Below, one piece after another: positions 1 to 20,288 of a stretch of 51,091 bases of DNA. The translations under genes were made by a program, and so were the position numbers. Where the stretch lies: assembly GCF_025770765.1 (NCBI RefSeq), contig NZ_JANZKY010000020.1, forward strand, positions 1-51,091. Direction: 5' to 3'. The stretch's first letter is position 1, and each line of letters opens with the position of its first letter. The stretch is from Propionivibrio soli (GTDB lineage: Bacteria; Pseudomonadota; Gammaproteobacteria; Burkholderiales; Rhodocyclaceae). Below the pieces are notes generated by a model, which had not been told where the DNA came from, made no database searches, and worked only from the letters and a program-made list of their open reading frames with translations.

Positions 1-115
1 ACCTTTCGAGTTCGTCAAGTGAGGCTCTGAGGCGCGGCTCCATCACGCTCCAAAGCTTCTGTGGAATGCGTACTGCTTCGCCTTCAGACGACGACAAGTC
101 CGACTCGCTGCTCAT
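1..115 (-). CDS. Partial cassette ORF, unknown, cut by window edge
   Basis: An ATG on the minus strand at 113-115 opens a frame with no stop for 38 codons to the left edge. The product begins MSSESDLSSSEGEAVRIPQK and goes on with a Leu/Arg/Glu-rich stretch. The start lies 4 bp inside the cassette boundary at 119-125 (GTTGGGC on the minus strand), where a cassette-4 gene should begin. Only the N-terminus is visible: hydrophilic, serine- and acid-rich at first, no signal peptide or membrane segment. I do not recognise it. No Shine-Dalgarno is evident, as is common for cassettes read from an external promoter. Confidence 0.55.
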   Translation of the reverse strand, partial: MSSESDLSSSEGEAVRIPQKLWSVMEPRLRASLDELER

Positions 116-118
116 GAT

Positions 119-205
119 GCCCAACGTAGAGCTAACCGGCGCTGCGCGGCTTTATCGCGCAGCGTCCAGCGACCGAAGGGAGCGAGGTTGAGCGCCATGT
201 TAGAG
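119..205 (-). repeat. attC site of cassette 3
   Basis: Read on the minus strand, the site opens with CTCTAAC (inverse core) and closes with GTTGGGC (core, G^TT crossover), about 87 bp in all. The inner arms CGCTGCGCG and CGCGCAGCG, around a GCTTTAT loop on the plus strand, form a strong hairpin. The central sequence is close to that of the other two attC sites here. The stop codon of the cassette-3 gene (200-202) lies inside the inverse core, as is frequent in cassettes. Confidence 0.88.
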
Positions 206-805
206 CTTTTTATCAAGCGACTTGGATAGCTTTACAAATTCTTCACGCAGCTTTCCAAGCTCCTCGACTATCGGGTCAGTCTGAACAACCGTGTTGATGT
301 ACGGACGGAGATCAACAATCGAAGTCTCGGATATCGACTCGGAGCCTGACATGTACTTTGCTGTAACTTGAAACTGCAACGGGCAAAGCTCTTCGATATT
401 CGAACCACCGAAAAGCGAAGGGCCGTTGCCCAAAATAAAAAGGAGTTGTCCCTCGGGCGGCAGACTGTCTATGACACGCGAAAATGCCGCACTGTTAGCA
501 ATATTACGTTCGTCACGCTTTTCACCAAGTTGATAGAAGCTTTTGTCTAAAGAAAGCCTCAGGCTAAGCGCCGCCGTCTTGCCCACGTTCTTGATAGAAA
601 GGCAGAAAAGCTGTGTTCCCGTTCTCACGGTAGCTGATACGAGGATGTAGGGGCGCATCGCTGCGTTTTGTTGGTTCCGCATTGCTGAGACCATGGATTC
701 GTTTGCACGAAGAATCTTGAGTGTTGCCCAAGCGTAGAACGCTGTGATGACAACGAGTGCAAGTGTGAGCCAGTCAGTATTAGTCATGATCGGAAGTGTG
801 GGCAT
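200..805 (-). CDS. Cassette 3: single-pass membrane protein, unknown
   Basis: A 201-residue cassette protein of unknown function. Residues about 13-33 (LALVVITAFYAWATLKIL region) form one hydrophobic membrane segment close to the N-terminus. A short Met/Gln/Asn-rich linker follows, then a soluble part from about residue 50 (RPYILV...) with alternating hydrophobic residues that looks like a beta-sandwich, and a charged C-terminal helix rich in Glu and Lys. This N-in membrane anchor plus beta domain plan is common among unnamed proteobacterial proteins; I assign no activity. ATG at 787 is an alternative start that keeps the membrane segment. The gene fills the cassette, its stop falling in the attC inverse core. 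Confidence 0.75.
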   Translation of the reverse strand: MPTLPIMTNTDWLTLALVVITAFYAWATLKILRANESMVSAMRNQQNAAMRPYILVSATVRTGTQLFCLSIKNVGKTAALSLRLSLDKSFYQLGEKRDERNIANSAAFSRVIDSLPPEGQLLFILGNGPSLFGGSNIEELCPLQFQVTAKYMSGSESISETSIVDLRPYINTVVQTDPIVEELGKLREEFVKLSKSLDKKL

Positions 806-818
806 AGTGGCCTGAAAG

Positions 819-887
819 CTCTAACGTTCAAGGTAACCGGCCTTGCGCGGCTTTATGCGCAAGGTCCGATTGACCGCAGGGTTGGGC
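819..887 (-). repeat. attC site of cassette 2
   Basis: On the minus strand it runs from GCCCAAC (complement of 881-887) to GTTAGAG (complement of 819-825), 69 bp. The inner arms CCTTGCGC and GCGCAAGG flank a GGCTTTAT loop, and a nearby CGG/CCG pairing is interrupted by one unpaired base, as expected for the extrahelical bases that set strand choice. The inverse core matches the canonical RYYYAAC; the core (GTTAGAG) deviates only at its last base. Confidence 0.88.
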
Positions 888-1157
888 GTCTAGCGTTTGC
901 TCAAGATAGTTGACGATGTACTCAACCGGCTCTTGATCTTTGCTCTTGAGCGTTGCGTGGCAGATGCTGCAATAGTCGTCCTTGCCCGGGTCAGGCGCGA
1001 AACAAAGTGTGGCAAGAGAGAGGTCGGAAACGGAGAATCCCTCGGCGGCCAAGATGGCCTCGAATTTCTCGCGAAGCCCTTTCAGTGACAACCTCAAGGG
1101 CTCGATTTCAGCAAACTGAGGTGGGCAAGGGTCAGCCGCCAGTAGATTGACTTGCAT
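828..1157 (-). CDS. Cassette 2: small CxxC protein, unknown
   Basis: A 109-residue frame from the ATG at 1157, unrecognised. It is soluble, with a CSIC pair (Cys-x2-Cys) about residue 65 preceded by acidic residues, which could bind metal or form a disulfide. The frame stays open upstream to an ATG at 1307, but that codon lies in cassette 1's attC, outside this cassette (825-1294), so it cannot be the native start; a GTG at 1277 is a second candidate. The frame runs through the cassette's own attC and stops at 828-830, so about 20 C-terminal residues are encoded by the recombination site. Confidence 0.6.
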   Translation of the reverse strand: MQVNLLAADPCPPQFAEIEPLRLSLKGLREKFEAILAAEGFSVSDLSLATLCFAPDPGKDDYCSICHATLKSKDQEPVEYIVNYLEQTLDAQPCGQSDLAHKAAQGRLP

Positions 1158-1288
1158 GTGCCCAATGCTGGCGCTGCGGCAGGCGCGTAAGACATGAGGA
1201 TGCACATAGGACAAGCCACTCACTGCATGGTGAGCAATGCTGTGGCATACGCTACGGAGTCTTTTCCTACGCGGCACGATGTCTAGAC

Positions 1289-1355
1289 GCCCAACGTTTG
1301 AATTCACCGGACTGCGCGGCTTTTCGCGCAGGTCCGGTGGAATGATGGGTTAGCC
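1289..1355 (-). repeat. attC site of cassette 1
   Basis: On the minus strand the site runs from GGCTAAC to GTTGGGC, 67 bp. The plus strand shows CACCGGA-CTGCGCG, a short GCTTTT loop, then CGCGCAG-G-TCCGGTG. The two arms pair perfectly except for one extra G, the extrahelical base typical of folded attC. It is the clearest of the three attC hairpins. Confidence 0.92.
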
Positions 1356-1365
1356 ATCTGCACAA

Positions 1366-1884
1366 TCAAAACACTCCATGTCCAGAGAATAATACTGAAA
1401 GCTCTTCGCGCTTCTCTTTGGACGGAGCTTTCTCCAGTGCTTGCGCAGCCTCGGCGCAAGCCTCTTCAGGGCGACCAAGAGCGCTGAGCGATACGGCCTT
1501 GGTGTACCTCAAAAGCCACTCAAGCGTGACTCCATTTTTCAGAGAAGGCTCCACCGTTTCCAGTGCCAACAACGGCTCATTGCAATGGAGGTAATGCTCA
1601 GCAAGGAAATGGCGAGCAACTACCACACCCGAAGTGAATTCGTCTTGATCTTGTTGCCGCTGAACGGCCAAAGCCAACTGGTATTGCTCTCGCGCTTCCG
1701 CATACCTGCCAAGAGTCGAGAGCGTACCAGCAAACTCCCCATGATAATCAGGTAGTCCAAGATGCTGAGGGTCAGCTAGGCGAAGTGCTTCTTGATAAAG
1801 AGGCACGGCCCTTTCTGCTTGGCCGCCTTGCCAAAAATCAAAAGCCTGTTTTGCCAATTGCGATGCGTGTGATTGATTACTCAT
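1366..1884 (-). CDS. Cassette 1: TPR-like protein
   Basis: A 172-residue, mostly helical soluble protein in the intI-proximal cassette. Two or three tetratricopeptide-like repeats are visible: one around residues 8-37 (AKQAFDFWQGGQAERAVPLY), one around 50-75 (TLSTLGRYAEAREQYQLAL) and a weaker one around 123-153 (RYTKAVSLSALGRPEEACAE). The G-x-x-x-x-A positions fit TPR helix pairs. Such proteins bind partners, and nothing identifies the partner. Being first in the array, this cassette would normally be the most recently inserted and best expressed. No convincing ribosome site precedes the ATG. The stop is 10 bp before attC, so the gene is intact. Confidence 0.8.
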   Translation of the reverse strand: MSNQSHASQLAKQAFDFWQGGQAERAVPLYQEALRLADPQHLGLPDYHGEFAGTLSTLGRYAEAREQYQLALAVQRQQDQDEFTSGVVVARHFLAEHYLHCNEPLLALETVEPSLKNGVTLEWLLRYTKAVSLSALGRPEEACAEAAQALEKAPSKEKREELSVLFSGHGVF

Positions 1885-1888
1885 GGGA

Positions 1889-1910
1889 ATGGCTAACGTA
1901 AAGTAGCCAT
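1889..1910. other. attI core: inverted integrase-binding boxes
   Basis: The plus strand shows ATGGCTA, 8 bp, then TAGCCAT, a 7-bp inverted repeat. On the minus strand this is a left box followed by GTTAGCC, the core at which cassette 1 is joined (crossover G^TT at 1897/1896). The position next to intI and in front of the first cassette makes it the attI simple site. It was identified by geometry, not by similarity to a named attI. Confidence 0.8.
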
Positions 1911-1917
1911 CCTAAAA

Positions 1918-1955
1918 GACGGAAAGTTTTGCGTCATGACGGAAAACTTTCCGTC
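1918..1955. repeat. 13-bp perfect inverted repeat in the attI region
   Basis: GACGGAAAGTTTT is followed 12 bp later by its exact complement AAAACTTTCCGTC, and GACGGAAA also recurs directly within the spacer. The element lies between the attI core and the LexA box/intI promoter. It has no T-run after it and is not an obvious terminator. Accessory integrase-binding repeats are known in some attI sites, so that role, or an operator or cassette promoter, is possible but only inferred. Confidence 0.7.
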
Positions 1956-1961
1956 AAATAA

Positions 1962-1977
1962 CTGTACAGACATACAG
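1962..1977. promoter_or_regulatory. LexA box upstream of intI
   Basis: CTGTACAGACATACAG fits CTGT-N8-ACAG exactly, the gammaproteobacterial/betaproteobacterial SOS box. A possible promoter overlaps it: TGTACA (1963-1968) as -35 and TGATAA (1986-1991) as -10, 17 bp apart, so bound LexA would cover the -35. LexA control of intI is established for class 1 and Vibrio integrons. The lexA gene in this window has a box of the same form. Confidence 0.85.
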
Positions 1978-2037
1978 GTTTTGGGTGATAAACTACGTTC
2001 GATCATGATCTTATGTCGAATTTAGTGGGGCCCAAAA

Positions 2038-3048
2038 ATGTATGCAAACCCGTCATCGGTCGAAGAGGCTTCGCCGCGCCTTCTTGATCATGTGCGCAGC
2101 CGGATTCGCTTGAAGCACTACAGCATCCGTACCGAGCAGGCTTATTTGGATTGGATTAGACGTTTTATACGTCATTTTGGCAAGCGCCATCCCAAAGACA
2201 TGGGGGCGGACGAAGTCCAGGAGTTTTTGAGTCATTTGGCGGTACAGGGACGGGTCTCCGCGTCGACTCAGAATCAGGCTAAAAGCGCGCTATTGTTCCT
2301 TTACAAGGAGGTTCTTGCGCTGGAGTTGCCTTGGCTGGAGAAGGTGGAATCGGCCAAAACGTCGAAGCGACTTCCGGTTGTTCTCACGCGTGAGGAAGTG
2401 GCAGCGCTCCTCGATCAACTGCAGGGAACGCATGCGTTGATTATTCGGTTGCTCTACGGGACCGGGCTGCGTGTCATGGAGGCGCTGCGTCTGCGAGTGA
2501 AAGACGTGGACTTTGCGCGTGGAGAGATACTTGTGCGAGACGGGAAGGGAGCGAAGGATCGCGTGACAATGCTTCCATCAAGCCTTGCTTCTGCGTTGCG
2601 CGAACACTTGCTCAGAGTACGCGAATTACATCGTCGCGACCTTGAGAGCGGGCGCGGCGAGGTGTACTTGCCCTATGCGCTCGAACGCAAATATCCGAAC
2701 GCGGGGCGGGAGTGGATGTGGCAGTACGTTTTTCCTTCGGCCTCTCTTTCTGAGGACCCGCGTTCGGGCGCTGTACACCGTCACCACGTTCAGGATCAAG
2801 CTGTCCAGCGAGCAATACGCCAAGCGGTGCGCAATGCAGGCATCGCCAAGCCCGCGACGCCGCACACCTTGCGCCACAGCTTCGCCACCCATTTGCTTGA
2901 GTCCGGGCACGACATTCGCACAGTGCAGGAGTTGCTCGGCCACTCCGATGTGTCGACCACGATGGTTTACACTCACGTACTCAACCGCGGTGGACGCGGC
3001 GTGTTGAGTCCGCTGGACCGACTGAAAGAAAACGCTAGCGTGCGGTAA
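2038..3048 (+). CDS. intI: Integron integrase IntI
   Basis: Site-specific tyrosine recombinase that inserts and excises cassettes at attI and attC. It has 336 residues, the usual IntI length (IntI1 is 337). The N-terminal SAM-like core-binding domain spans about 14-100 and the catalytic domain about 112-320. The catalytic set is visible: Arg145 (GTGLR), His276 and Arg279 (HTLRH), His302 (LGHSD) and Tyr311 (MVYTH). The insertion around 214-234 ([19 protein letters not shown]) is the patch that separates IntI from XerC/XerD. It is divergent from the cassettes, with a LexA box upstream, so expression should rise after DNA damage. The frame is intact, suggesting an active integrase. The start is preceded only by a weak GGGG-type ribosome site. 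Confidence 0.97.
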
Positions 3049-3082
3049 CGCTTTTCTGGTGACGAAGGGATTATCAGGGGCA

Positions 3083-3109
3083 TCGGCCGGGCTCTTTGAG
3101 CCCGGCCGA
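3083..3109. terminator. Hairpin between convergent intI and cysN
   Basis: A perfect 12-bp stem, TCGGCCGGGCTC and its complement, around a TTT loop. It lies between the ends of intI (plus) and cysN (minus), where a bidirectional terminator is expected. No uninterrupted T-run follows on either strand, so termination may be weak or assisted. Confidence 0.6.
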
Positions 3110-3126: not shown

Positions 3127-4407
3127 TTAGAGAATCATTCCGGCCCCCACCGTGTTGTTTGTCGATTCGTCAATGACGATGAAAGCCCCCGTACCGCGAT
3201 TGACGGTATAGCGATCGACGAACAACGGCTGCGCGAGCTTGATGCCCACCTTGGCGATGTCGTTCATCACAAGACGTTCGGCCGACTGCTGCTCCATCGT
3301 GTTGATATCGGCGCGGAAGTCGATGCGCCCGAGCAGCGCCTTGCTGTCGCGCGTAGTATGCCGGACGAGGTATTTACGGCGCGGGTCGAGCGGGGTCTCG
3401 GAGAGCCAGCAGAGCATTGCGTCAATCTCCTTGGCGACGGTCGGCGCCTCGCCGGCTTTTACGATCATGTCCCCGCGCGAGATGTCGATTTCGTCGTCGA
3501 GCAAAAGCGTGACCGACTGTTCGGCAAAAGCACGCGGCAGAGACCGGTCGATGATGCGGATGTCCTTTACGTGCGTTTCCCGCCCCGCGGGCAAGATCGT
3601 TACTGCGTCGCCGATGCCGATCGACCCCGACTCTACACGGCCCATGAAGCCTCGGTAGTCATGCAGTTCGGGGTTGGCCGATTCCTGCGGTCGGCAGACG
3701 TATTGCACCGGGAAGCGAAACTGCTCGTTGTGTTCGGCGTGCGAAGCGGTGGCGTTTTCGAGTAGTTCGACAAGCGTTGGCCCGGTGTACCAGCCGAGGC
3801 GGTTGCCGCGTTCGACGACCATGTCGCCATTGAGTGCGGACATCGGAATAAACCGAACGTCATTGATACCGATCTGCGAGGCGAAGGCCAGGTAATCATC
3901 CCTGATGCGGTCAAAGACATCCTGCGCGTAATCGACAAGATCCATCTTGTTGATGGCGACCACGAGATGCGGGATGGTCATCAAGTGGGCGAGGTACGAG
4001 TGCCGGCGCGTCTGAGCCAGCACGCCTTTGCGTGCGTCGATCAAGATAATGGCCAAGTCCGCCGTCGAGGCAGCGGTTACCATGTTGCGCGTGTACTGCT
4101 CGTGCCCGGGCGCGTCGGCGATGATGTACTTGCGCGTGCCGGTGGTGAAGTAACGGTAGGCAACGTCGATCGTTATCCCTTGTTCGCGCTCTGCCTGCAG
4201 ACCGTCGGTGAGCAGCGAGAGGTCGATGGCGTCCATGCCGCGCTTCTTGGATGTGCGCGCGATCGCATTCAGCGTGTCGGCCAGAATCGCCTTGGTGTCA
4301 TAGAGCAGGCGGCCGATCAGCGTGCTCTTGCCGTCATCGACACTGCCGCAGGTGAGAAAGCGCAGCAAGCCGTGGTCGATGGGCGGAATCGGTTCAATCG
4401 CTGACAT
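3127..4407 (-). CDS. cysN: Sulfate adenylyltransferase GTPase subunit CysN
   Basis: The large subunit of ATP sulfurylase: GTP hydrolysis by CysN drives formation of adenylyl sulfate (APS) from ATP and sulfate by CysD. It has 426 residues, shorter than E. coli CysN and without a fused CysC kinase. The EF-Tu-like G domain shows the P-loop GSVDDGKS (21-28), DAPGHE (99-104) and NKMD (154-157), followed by beta-barrel domains. The start codon overlaps the cysD stop (TAATG), so the two are translationally coupled. No APS kinase gene is near, which fits the APS-type CysH two genes upstream. Confidence 0.96.
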   Translation of the reverse strand: MSAIEPIPPIDHGLLRFLTCGSVDDGKSTLIGRLLYDTKAILADTLNAIARTSKKRGMDAIDLSLLTDGLQAEREQGITIDVAYRYFTTGTRKYIIADAPGHEQYTRNMVTAASTADLAIILIDARKGVLAQTRRHSYLAHLMTIPHLVVAINKMDLVDYAQDVFDRIRDDYLAFASQIGINDVRFIPMSALNGDMVVERGNRLGWYTGPTLVELLENATASHAEHNEQFRFPVQYVCRPQESANPELHDYRGFMGRVESGSIGIGDAVTILPAGRETHVKDIRIIDRSLPRAFAEQSVTLLLDDEIDISRGDMIVKAGEAPTVAKEIDAMLCWLSETPLDPRRKYLVRHTTRDSKALLGRIDFRADINTMEQQSAERLVMNDIAKVGIKLAQPLFVDRYTVNRGTGAFIVIDESTNNTVGAGMIL

Positions 4408-19645: not shown

Positions 19646-19673
19646 CTGTTGCTGTATAAAAATACAGCAACAG
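19646..19673. promoter_or_regulatory. Extended LexA box of lexA
   Basis: The core CTGTATAAAAATACAG (19652-19667) fits CTGT-N8-ACAG and is flanked by CTGTTG and CAACAG, making a 28-bp dyad. It lies 13 bases before the lexA start, as expected for autoregulation. The same box could also affect the divergent cNMP-fold gene. Confidence 0.93.
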
Positions 19674-19685
19674 AAAGGAAGCCCG

Positions 19686-20288
19686 ATGAACAAGCTAACG
19701 CCACGTCAGCGAGAAATTCTCGACTTCATCCGTAATACTGTCGAAGTCCTCGGCGCACCGCCAACACGCGCGGAAATTGCGAACGCATTCGGCTTTGCGT
19801 CGCACAACGCGGCCGAGGAGCATCTAAAGGCGCTGGCAAAGAAGGGCGTCATCGTGCTCGAACCTGGATCGGCGCGCGGCATTCGCCTGGTTGAGCAGCT
19901 TGGGTTGCCGCTCGTCGGCAGCGTGGCGGCGGGTAGCCCGATCCTGGCGGTGGAAAACGTGCAACGGCGCTATGCGCTCGACGCAAGCCTGTTTACCCCG
20001 CGGGCGGATTTCCTCTTGCGCGTGCGAGGCCTGTCGATGATCAATGCTGGCATCTTCGACGGTGATCTCCTTGCCGTGCATCGCACGAGCGAGGCGCACA
20101 ACGGGCAAATCGTGGTTGCCCGCCTGGACGATGAGGTGACCGTCAAGCGCTATCGTCAGCACGGCCGCGTCGTCGAACTGATCGCTGAGAATCCCGACTT
20201 CGCGCCGATAGTCGTCGATACGCGCGAGCAGTCTCTGGAGATAGAGGGTATCGCCGTGGGACTTATCCGCGGCGGCGAGGGGATGTGA
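19686..20288 (+). CDS. lexA: SOS repressor LexA
   Basis: Represses SOS genes and self-cleaves when RecA filaments form on damaged DNA. It has 200 residues. The winged-helix DNA-binding domain (1-65) opens [16 protein letters not shown]. The cleavage site is Ala82-Gly83 (VAAGS) and the catalytic dyad is Ser117 (GLSM) and Lys154 (VTVKR). AAAGGAAG precedes the ATG at 19686; the frame is open upstream but crosses the LexA box. Likely regulon members in this window are lexA itself and intI. Confidence 0.97.

Follow-up and report, generated by a model that had tools for sequence, protein, structure and literature searches.

The window described here (the whole stretch analyzed, 51,091 bp, positions 1–51,091 of contig NZ_JANZKY010000020.1 of Propionivibrio soli, assembly GCF_025770765.1) begins with an integron consisting of an intact integrase gene (intI), an attI site, and an array of gene cassettes with attC sites. 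The genome (G000) is 4.76 Mb in 36 contigs, and the window is C13:1-51091. With considerable confidence, the data as one are best explained by an intact chromosomal integron that is probably SOS-controlled, whose integrase (IntI) may serve other attI sites, and whose attI carries a putative protein-binding dyad. The integron by itself is ordinary; integrase-less copies of its attI and the covarying dyad make it a variant.

Integrase, cassettes, and chromosomal setting

intI (2038..3048, plus strand) encodes a 336-aa integron integrase, and its reading frame contains zero internal stops. IntI scored 501.1 bits against TIGR02249 (cut-off 265) and far under the cut-offs of the XerC and XerD models. 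Residues 16–329 align to IntI4 (PDB 2a3v), and the alignment keeps the tyrosine-recombinase motifs R, K, HxxR, H, and Y. In an 87-row tree, IntI clusters with five Propionivibrio rows (support 98/87; two pairs identical) inside a wider grouping of Propionivibrio and other Rhodocyclales IntIs, separate from two Xer-type proteins of the same genome. Grouping with XerC/D, the outcome that the initial annotation had named as damaging, did not occur. Among the matches listed, identity is 59.4–59.7% to IntI1 records and 61.1% to the best-ranked plasmid match, and 163 of the best 5000 records fall in the 60–80% identity band. These identities agree with the early claim that this is no mobile class 1 integron, and the sequence comparisons support a chromosomal integron instead.

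attI (1891..1938, minus strand) comprises the core and one dyad copy, copy 2. It adjoins intI, its crossover lies in GTTAGCC at 1891–1897, and a cassette is inserted there at G^TT. The attI model (R2), which had this site in its training set, scored it at 60.9 bits. The cassette open reading frames (ORFs) are read from the minus strand and diverge from intI. Cassette 1 (1295..1896), limited by the attI and attC cores, has an ORF at 1366–1884 for a 172-aa TPR protein (Pfam TPR). Cassettes 2 (825..1294) and 3 (125..824) are limited by attC cores; the longest ORF of the former (828–1307, 159 aa) and the ORF of the latter (200–805, 201 aa) match no family. The start of a further cassette, X, occupies 1..124 on the same strand.

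The attCs of cassettes 1, 2, and 3 lie at 1289..1355, 819..887, and 119..205 (minus strand). A hold-out attC model (R3), for which 18 attCs of this genome, none from the window, served as training set, was run over the 51 kb up to E 1 and returned exactly these places at 83.4, 69.4, and 67.5 bits, far from the background scores that would have spoken against them. Its sole further match, at 19 bits, is the complement of one of them. Model R1, built from 21 attCs including these three, scored the sites at 119–205, 819–887, and 1289–1355 at 82.2, 72.3, and 70.6 bits, with that training overlap. The single-strand folds of the attCs of cassettes 1 and 2 reach z −4.1 and −3.9 versus shuffles. In all three cassettes, the inverse core (R'') complements the cassette's own start 7/7. 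The intact intI, attI core, three attCs, divergent ORFs, and start-to-inverse-core complementarity read earlier from the letters were thus all recovered. Rfam gave 0 matches at gathering score over the whole window; a permissive Rfam run on 1–3100 gave three chance-level matches, including TD-2 at 1890–1990 (E 0.96) over attI, which were not used.

A perfect CTGT-N8-ACAG LexA box, CTGTACAGACATACAG, lies between attI and intI (1962..1977, plus strand). Two such boxes occur in the window against 0.32 expected, and the second (19652..19667, plus strand) is at the host lexA gene (~19686–20288; TIGR00498, 232 bits). Because the only other box in the window is at lexA itself, host LexA is predicted, very likely correctly, to read the intI box, and the integron is probably SOS-controlled. 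Control through LexA boxes is described in many integrons (PMC3108266).

cysN (3127..4407, minus strand; TIGR02034, 570.7 bits) ends ~80 bp from the end of intI, and CysN, CysD, and an APS/PAPS reductase adjoin the integron, bearing out its described place beside a sulfate-assimilation cluster. CysN was found beside intI at none of the relatives' intI loci, many of which span only a few kb. Nine genomes of the genus have an over-cut-off intI as well as a strong cysN match, and in 9/9 the two are on different contigs. With intI seen next to cysN in no relative, the site does not look ancestral. The genus IntIs do not form one clade, and others of Propionivibrio are placed elsewhere in the tree; this scatter indicates something other than simple inheritance of a single IntI by the genus. 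The earlier reading of a resident integron, taken as a conserved ancestral site, is therefore not supported. The likeness of the attCs within the array, which had been offered as a sign of residency, is weak evidence because other arrays of the genome have attCs of like types and the window's own array holds several. Since its locus is not conserved within the genus, the integron is called chromosomal, not sedentary.

The initial annotation noted that the array runs off the window. The first 127 bp of C13 equal the last 127 bp of C17 and match the end of C19 over 119 bp; the last 127 bp of C34 equal C17:46984-47110. ORFs in the left part of C17 have ~75–85% identity matches downstream of cysN in 5/9 relatives, and those of C34 and C19 have weak matches there (≤46%). 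For this reason the chromosome order is likely C17-X-C13, with C17 continuing the array and X running on at C17:46984-47483. Chromosomal sequence then flanks the integron on both sides, with cysN on one and, on the other, genes of C17 that relatives carry close to cysN. C17 contributes 11 attCs, 14 with the window's three if it continues the array. The complement of R'' to the cassette start is 7/7 in 12/14 along C13 and C17, and in 23/33 over six arrays checked. Cassette products are largely without family. PADLOC gave one weak match (E 0.0045) among 10 cassette proteins and otherwise nothing. Ten C17 proteins were examined with Pfam: of nine in the array, two matched (AAA/kinase-like and DJ-1/PfpI) and seven did not; the remaining protein, encoded outside the array, is a patatin.

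Integrase-less attI sites and the attI dyad

R2 located four attI sites in G000, at C13 (the window), C19 (59.3 bits), C3 (50.2 bits), and C31 (35.7 bits); its E-values are rough, and 150 candidates were scored per genome. The C19, C3, and C31 copies are identical to the window's at 47, 45, and 41 of 48 positions up to the core and at 7, 7, and 6 of 30 beyond it, a break that falls at the crossover. Each copy heads an array, and its first cassette fits the R'' complement 7/7. All three arrays are clusters of attC sites lacking an integrase (CALINs; two or more attC without intact intI). At C19, intI is reduced to an N-terminal fragment that matches residues 11–52, and no intI was found at C3 or C31; by eye, C31 apparently keeps only the region upstream of intI and C3 only attI. 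Over 300 bp, the platforms of C13 and C19 share 94% identity. At L009 12188–12535, a truncated intI (to ~residue 52) runs into sequence by an EamA transporter gene, and intI fragments of similar length (1–43 and 1–51) occur at the attI of L187 and L190. Pfam examination of 10 proteins of C19, C3, and C31 gave one NYN domain and nine without a match.

The genome also encodes a second, distant IntI (G000:C33:65183-66109; 371.5 bits) that is 50% identical to the window's and has its own array of about five attCs. R1 found at least 39 attCs at E≤0.01 on nine contigs (21 being its training set; 150/4461 first-look candidates were scored). With these attCs, the second IntI, and three integrase-less platforms, the genome holds further integron-like loci beside the window's.

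Cassette X is ~500 bp; two contigs seem to lead into it and two out of it, which would make it common to the C34/C19 array. Its ends are identical between contigs (127 bp on the C34 side, 119–127 bp on the C13/C19 side), and the surrounding sequences diverge within 4 nt of both crossovers. These contig-end identities suggest one identical cassette in two arrays. Identical X ends, set against platforms that are 94% identical, favor a recent move of a cassette to or from an array without integrase.

From these features we infer an active IntI, SOS induction, service in trans, and a function for the dyad. Following the established biology of the family, cleavage of LexA would lead to production of IntI, which would bind the folded bottom strand of attC sites, excise cassettes, and insert them at attI (G^TT), so that new cassettes sit beside attI. 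The window's IntI may also serve the near-identical attI of C19 and perhaps the older sites of C3 and C31, and cassettes may have moved between attI platforms with truncated or absent intI, as the shared X ends suggest. Look-alike attI sites without an enzyme hint that one enzyme may serve several sites. A distributed integron in Propionivibrio genomes, in which one SOS-induced IntI would act in trans on several scattered integrase-less attI platforms, each a functioning capture site that has its own array, and the dyad, preserved through covariation, would mark the sites for IntI or tie cassette expression to recombination, is proposed tentatively and is less likely than not.

Across 28 genomes of the genus, G000 included, R2 found 22 nearly full-length attI sites at E≤1e-5, spread over 8 genomes. 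This count omits opposite-strand rows of counted sites (G005:C12:31323-31368 and G001:C351:1805-1838) and G005:C15 (E 2.2e-5), which heads attCs. Several of the 22 score merely 29–37 bits. Only 4/22 have an intact, over-cut-off intI within 1 kb, a count in which fragmented assemblies may hide intI at a contig end. For 13 of the 18 sites without intact intI, an attC lies within 3.5 kb downstream (none seen for 5/18); some of these nearest attCs are weak (23–31 bits), and in one array 3 kb with IS91-type sequence intervene. With many integrase-less arrays in one genus keeping attI at their head, the attI model makes the question of one integrase and many platforms directly testable.

Two side observations concern these arrays. 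In L187 (G005:C12), an array without integrase contains an IS91-type element with a tyrosine recombinase twice: one copy directly follows attI, and the second has a split transposase frame. The IntI-like ORFs of L187 adjoin IS91-type transposase sequence and were rejected as cassette-borne integrases. A shorter, 44-bp attI-like sequence precedes attCs at five places in G005 and G001 (L193, L194, L201, L202, and L203). The three G005 copies have a repeated ~3.2-kb block in common, which in L193 includes a gene for a GH108 lysozyme, and one of the G001 copies has a NinB gene nearby; together these features suggest that prophages carry arrays without an integrase. Neither the 44-bp sequence nor a long attI pattern had exact matches in viral_contigs.

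The dyad is present in two adjoining copies in the window, copy 1 (TGACGGAAAGTTTTCCGTCA; 1937..1956) and copy 2 (1917..1936), with which R2 was trained; no strand is assigned to either. Together they form a 38-bp near-perfect palindrome (fold z −7.7). The 20-bp dyad lies ~30 bp from the crossover, and its pattern, TGAYG-N10-CRTCA, occurs in 28/78 attI regions, with 0 at spacings 4–9 and 11–19 (L046, L080, and L095 were omitted for too little upstream sequence). Inverted repeats of all palindrome types scoring ≥8 are found upstream of intI in 38/77 regions versus 1.6 expected from shuffles (regions <130 bp omitted). The dyad-to-core unit is 48 bp in 19/25 loci, or 21 if L022 and L023 are measured from the nearer copy (L052 and L059 omitted). 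In G000 the dyad pattern has matches at all four attI loci and a single one outside them, which carries 3 mismatches (control: two per strand). Another attI type is frequent among the more distant IntI relatives; many of L064–L098 show it upstream of intI, with AGTAGACACC/GGTGTCTACT-like palindromes abutting the core.

The inner arms of 26 distinct dyads are complementary at 79/130 positions versus 58.8 ± 5.7 when shuffled (3/10,000 reach this). In an alignment of 24 loci chosen by the outer dyad motif, whose outer pairs are therefore biased, covariation is 0.288 versus 0.155 ± 0.023, and sliding partners by 1–3 columns lowers pairing from 81% to 28–45%. Six pairs changed on both sides; 45/500 shuffles reach this number, and that measure alone is not striking. 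Relatedness can inflate these pairing and covariation tests. Dyad symmetry is 7–9 of 10 pairs at 18 integrase-less sites and 7–9 at 4 intI-bearing sites, with a shuffled mean of 5.7 (site G001:C21 is represented by record L019). At about three helical turns from the crossover, the dyad most likely functions within attI as a site for protein binding; candidate roles are accessory IntI sites or an operator over a cassette promoter. As an intrinsic terminator it is unsupported, none being found in 1850–2120, and as a global-regulator site likewise, with no good copy elsewhere in the genome. The dyad offers a handle for locating attI sites in Rhodocyclales and relatives.

Competing explanations

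That chance palindromes beside a Xer recombinase account for the elements has a virtually nil probability, with nothing found in its favor: the TIGR02249 score, the IntI tree, the complement between R'' and cassette start, and the R3 hold-out refute it. A mobile integron, brought by a transposon or plasmid and landed beside cysN, would account for a site that is not common to relatives and for the scatter of genus IntIs in the tree. It is nevertheless improbable, given that the window's IntI clusters with those of Propionivibrio and other Rhodocyclales and shares 59.7% identity with IntI1, and that chromosomal sequence flanks the integron on both sides; a transposase beside the integron was not noticed, though no systematic search was made.

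The three integrase-less platforms may instead be dead relics of former integrons, their cassettes frozen and nothing acting in trans. This has close to an even chance, falling just below it: C19 holds only a fragment of intI, C31 and C3 apparently hold less, and the C31 attI has drifted (41/48). Set against it are X ends that are identical though 6% separates the C13 platform from that of C19, first cassettes that fit attI 7/7, and dyad symmetry at the 18 integrase-less sites like that at the four with intI. The dyad itself might be the operator of an ordinary transcription factor, outside the recombination machinery, which we consider a real possibility, if short of evens. In its favor are the 20-bp length with conserved TGAYG half sites and a promoter-like TTGACG-N17-TAGGAT that spans the dyad in 5/40 loci looked at. 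However, the dyad in G000 is limited to the attI copies bar one control-level match, its inner arms vary yet stay paired beyond shuffles, and its unit with the core is 48 bp in most loci. The window's would-be promoter has 8/12 matches by hand and did not appear in the scan; a cassette promoter at this attI is a weak guess.

Several points weigh against an intact, trans-acting chromosomal integron. The attC at 119–205 folds weakly (z −1.5; 19/200 shuffles fold equally well), and the two most distal C17 attCs are decayed, with complements of 5/7 and 1/7. A sigma-70 promoter scan of 1850–2120 passed none. The presence of X in the C34/C19 array is deduced from overlapping contig ends; no contig spans it there, and its middle was seen once. 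The integrase-less attI copies could be inert relics, and the C33 IntI could also act at some sites.

Comparison with known integrons

It has been proposed that CALINs, which are common, are degraded integrons (PMC9024848); they can be mobilized in trans (PMC12444791). attI sites outside class 1 are poorly described, and IntegronFinder 2 does not detect attI (PMC9024848); attI and the cassette promoter Pc are treated in PMC12901181, PMC3948777, and PMC4792948. No report of the dyad or of counts of attI-headed CALINs in Propionivibrio was found in the literature accessible in part, with subscription journals mostly outside it. The window's integron resembles the class 1 integron in integrase family and LexA box (PMC3108266) and differs in that its IntI is 59.7% identical to IntI1 and that attI1 has direct repeats DR1/DR2 (PMC9892861) where the window has the dyad.

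As in Xanthomonas (PMC12444791) and Vibrio cholerae (PMC3948777), intI, attI, and a cassette array are on the chromosome, and as in Xanthomonas, CALINs occur elsewhere in the genome (PMC12444791). The Xanthomonas integron is downstream of ilvD at a locus shared by the genus (PMC12444791), whereas the window's is not at a shared locus, and V. cholerae Pc is controlled by CRP (PMC3948777), which is a further difference. Unlike either, several attI copies per genome and an attI dyad are present here. The nearest precedent is a Shewanella prophage CALIN with its own attI (PMC9892861): in prophage M16-3, as here, one attI type stands at the head of both a complete integron and an array lacking the integrase. 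M16-3 is one case in one prophage, whereas three copies are found in the genome described here and 18/22 genus sites are without intact intI.

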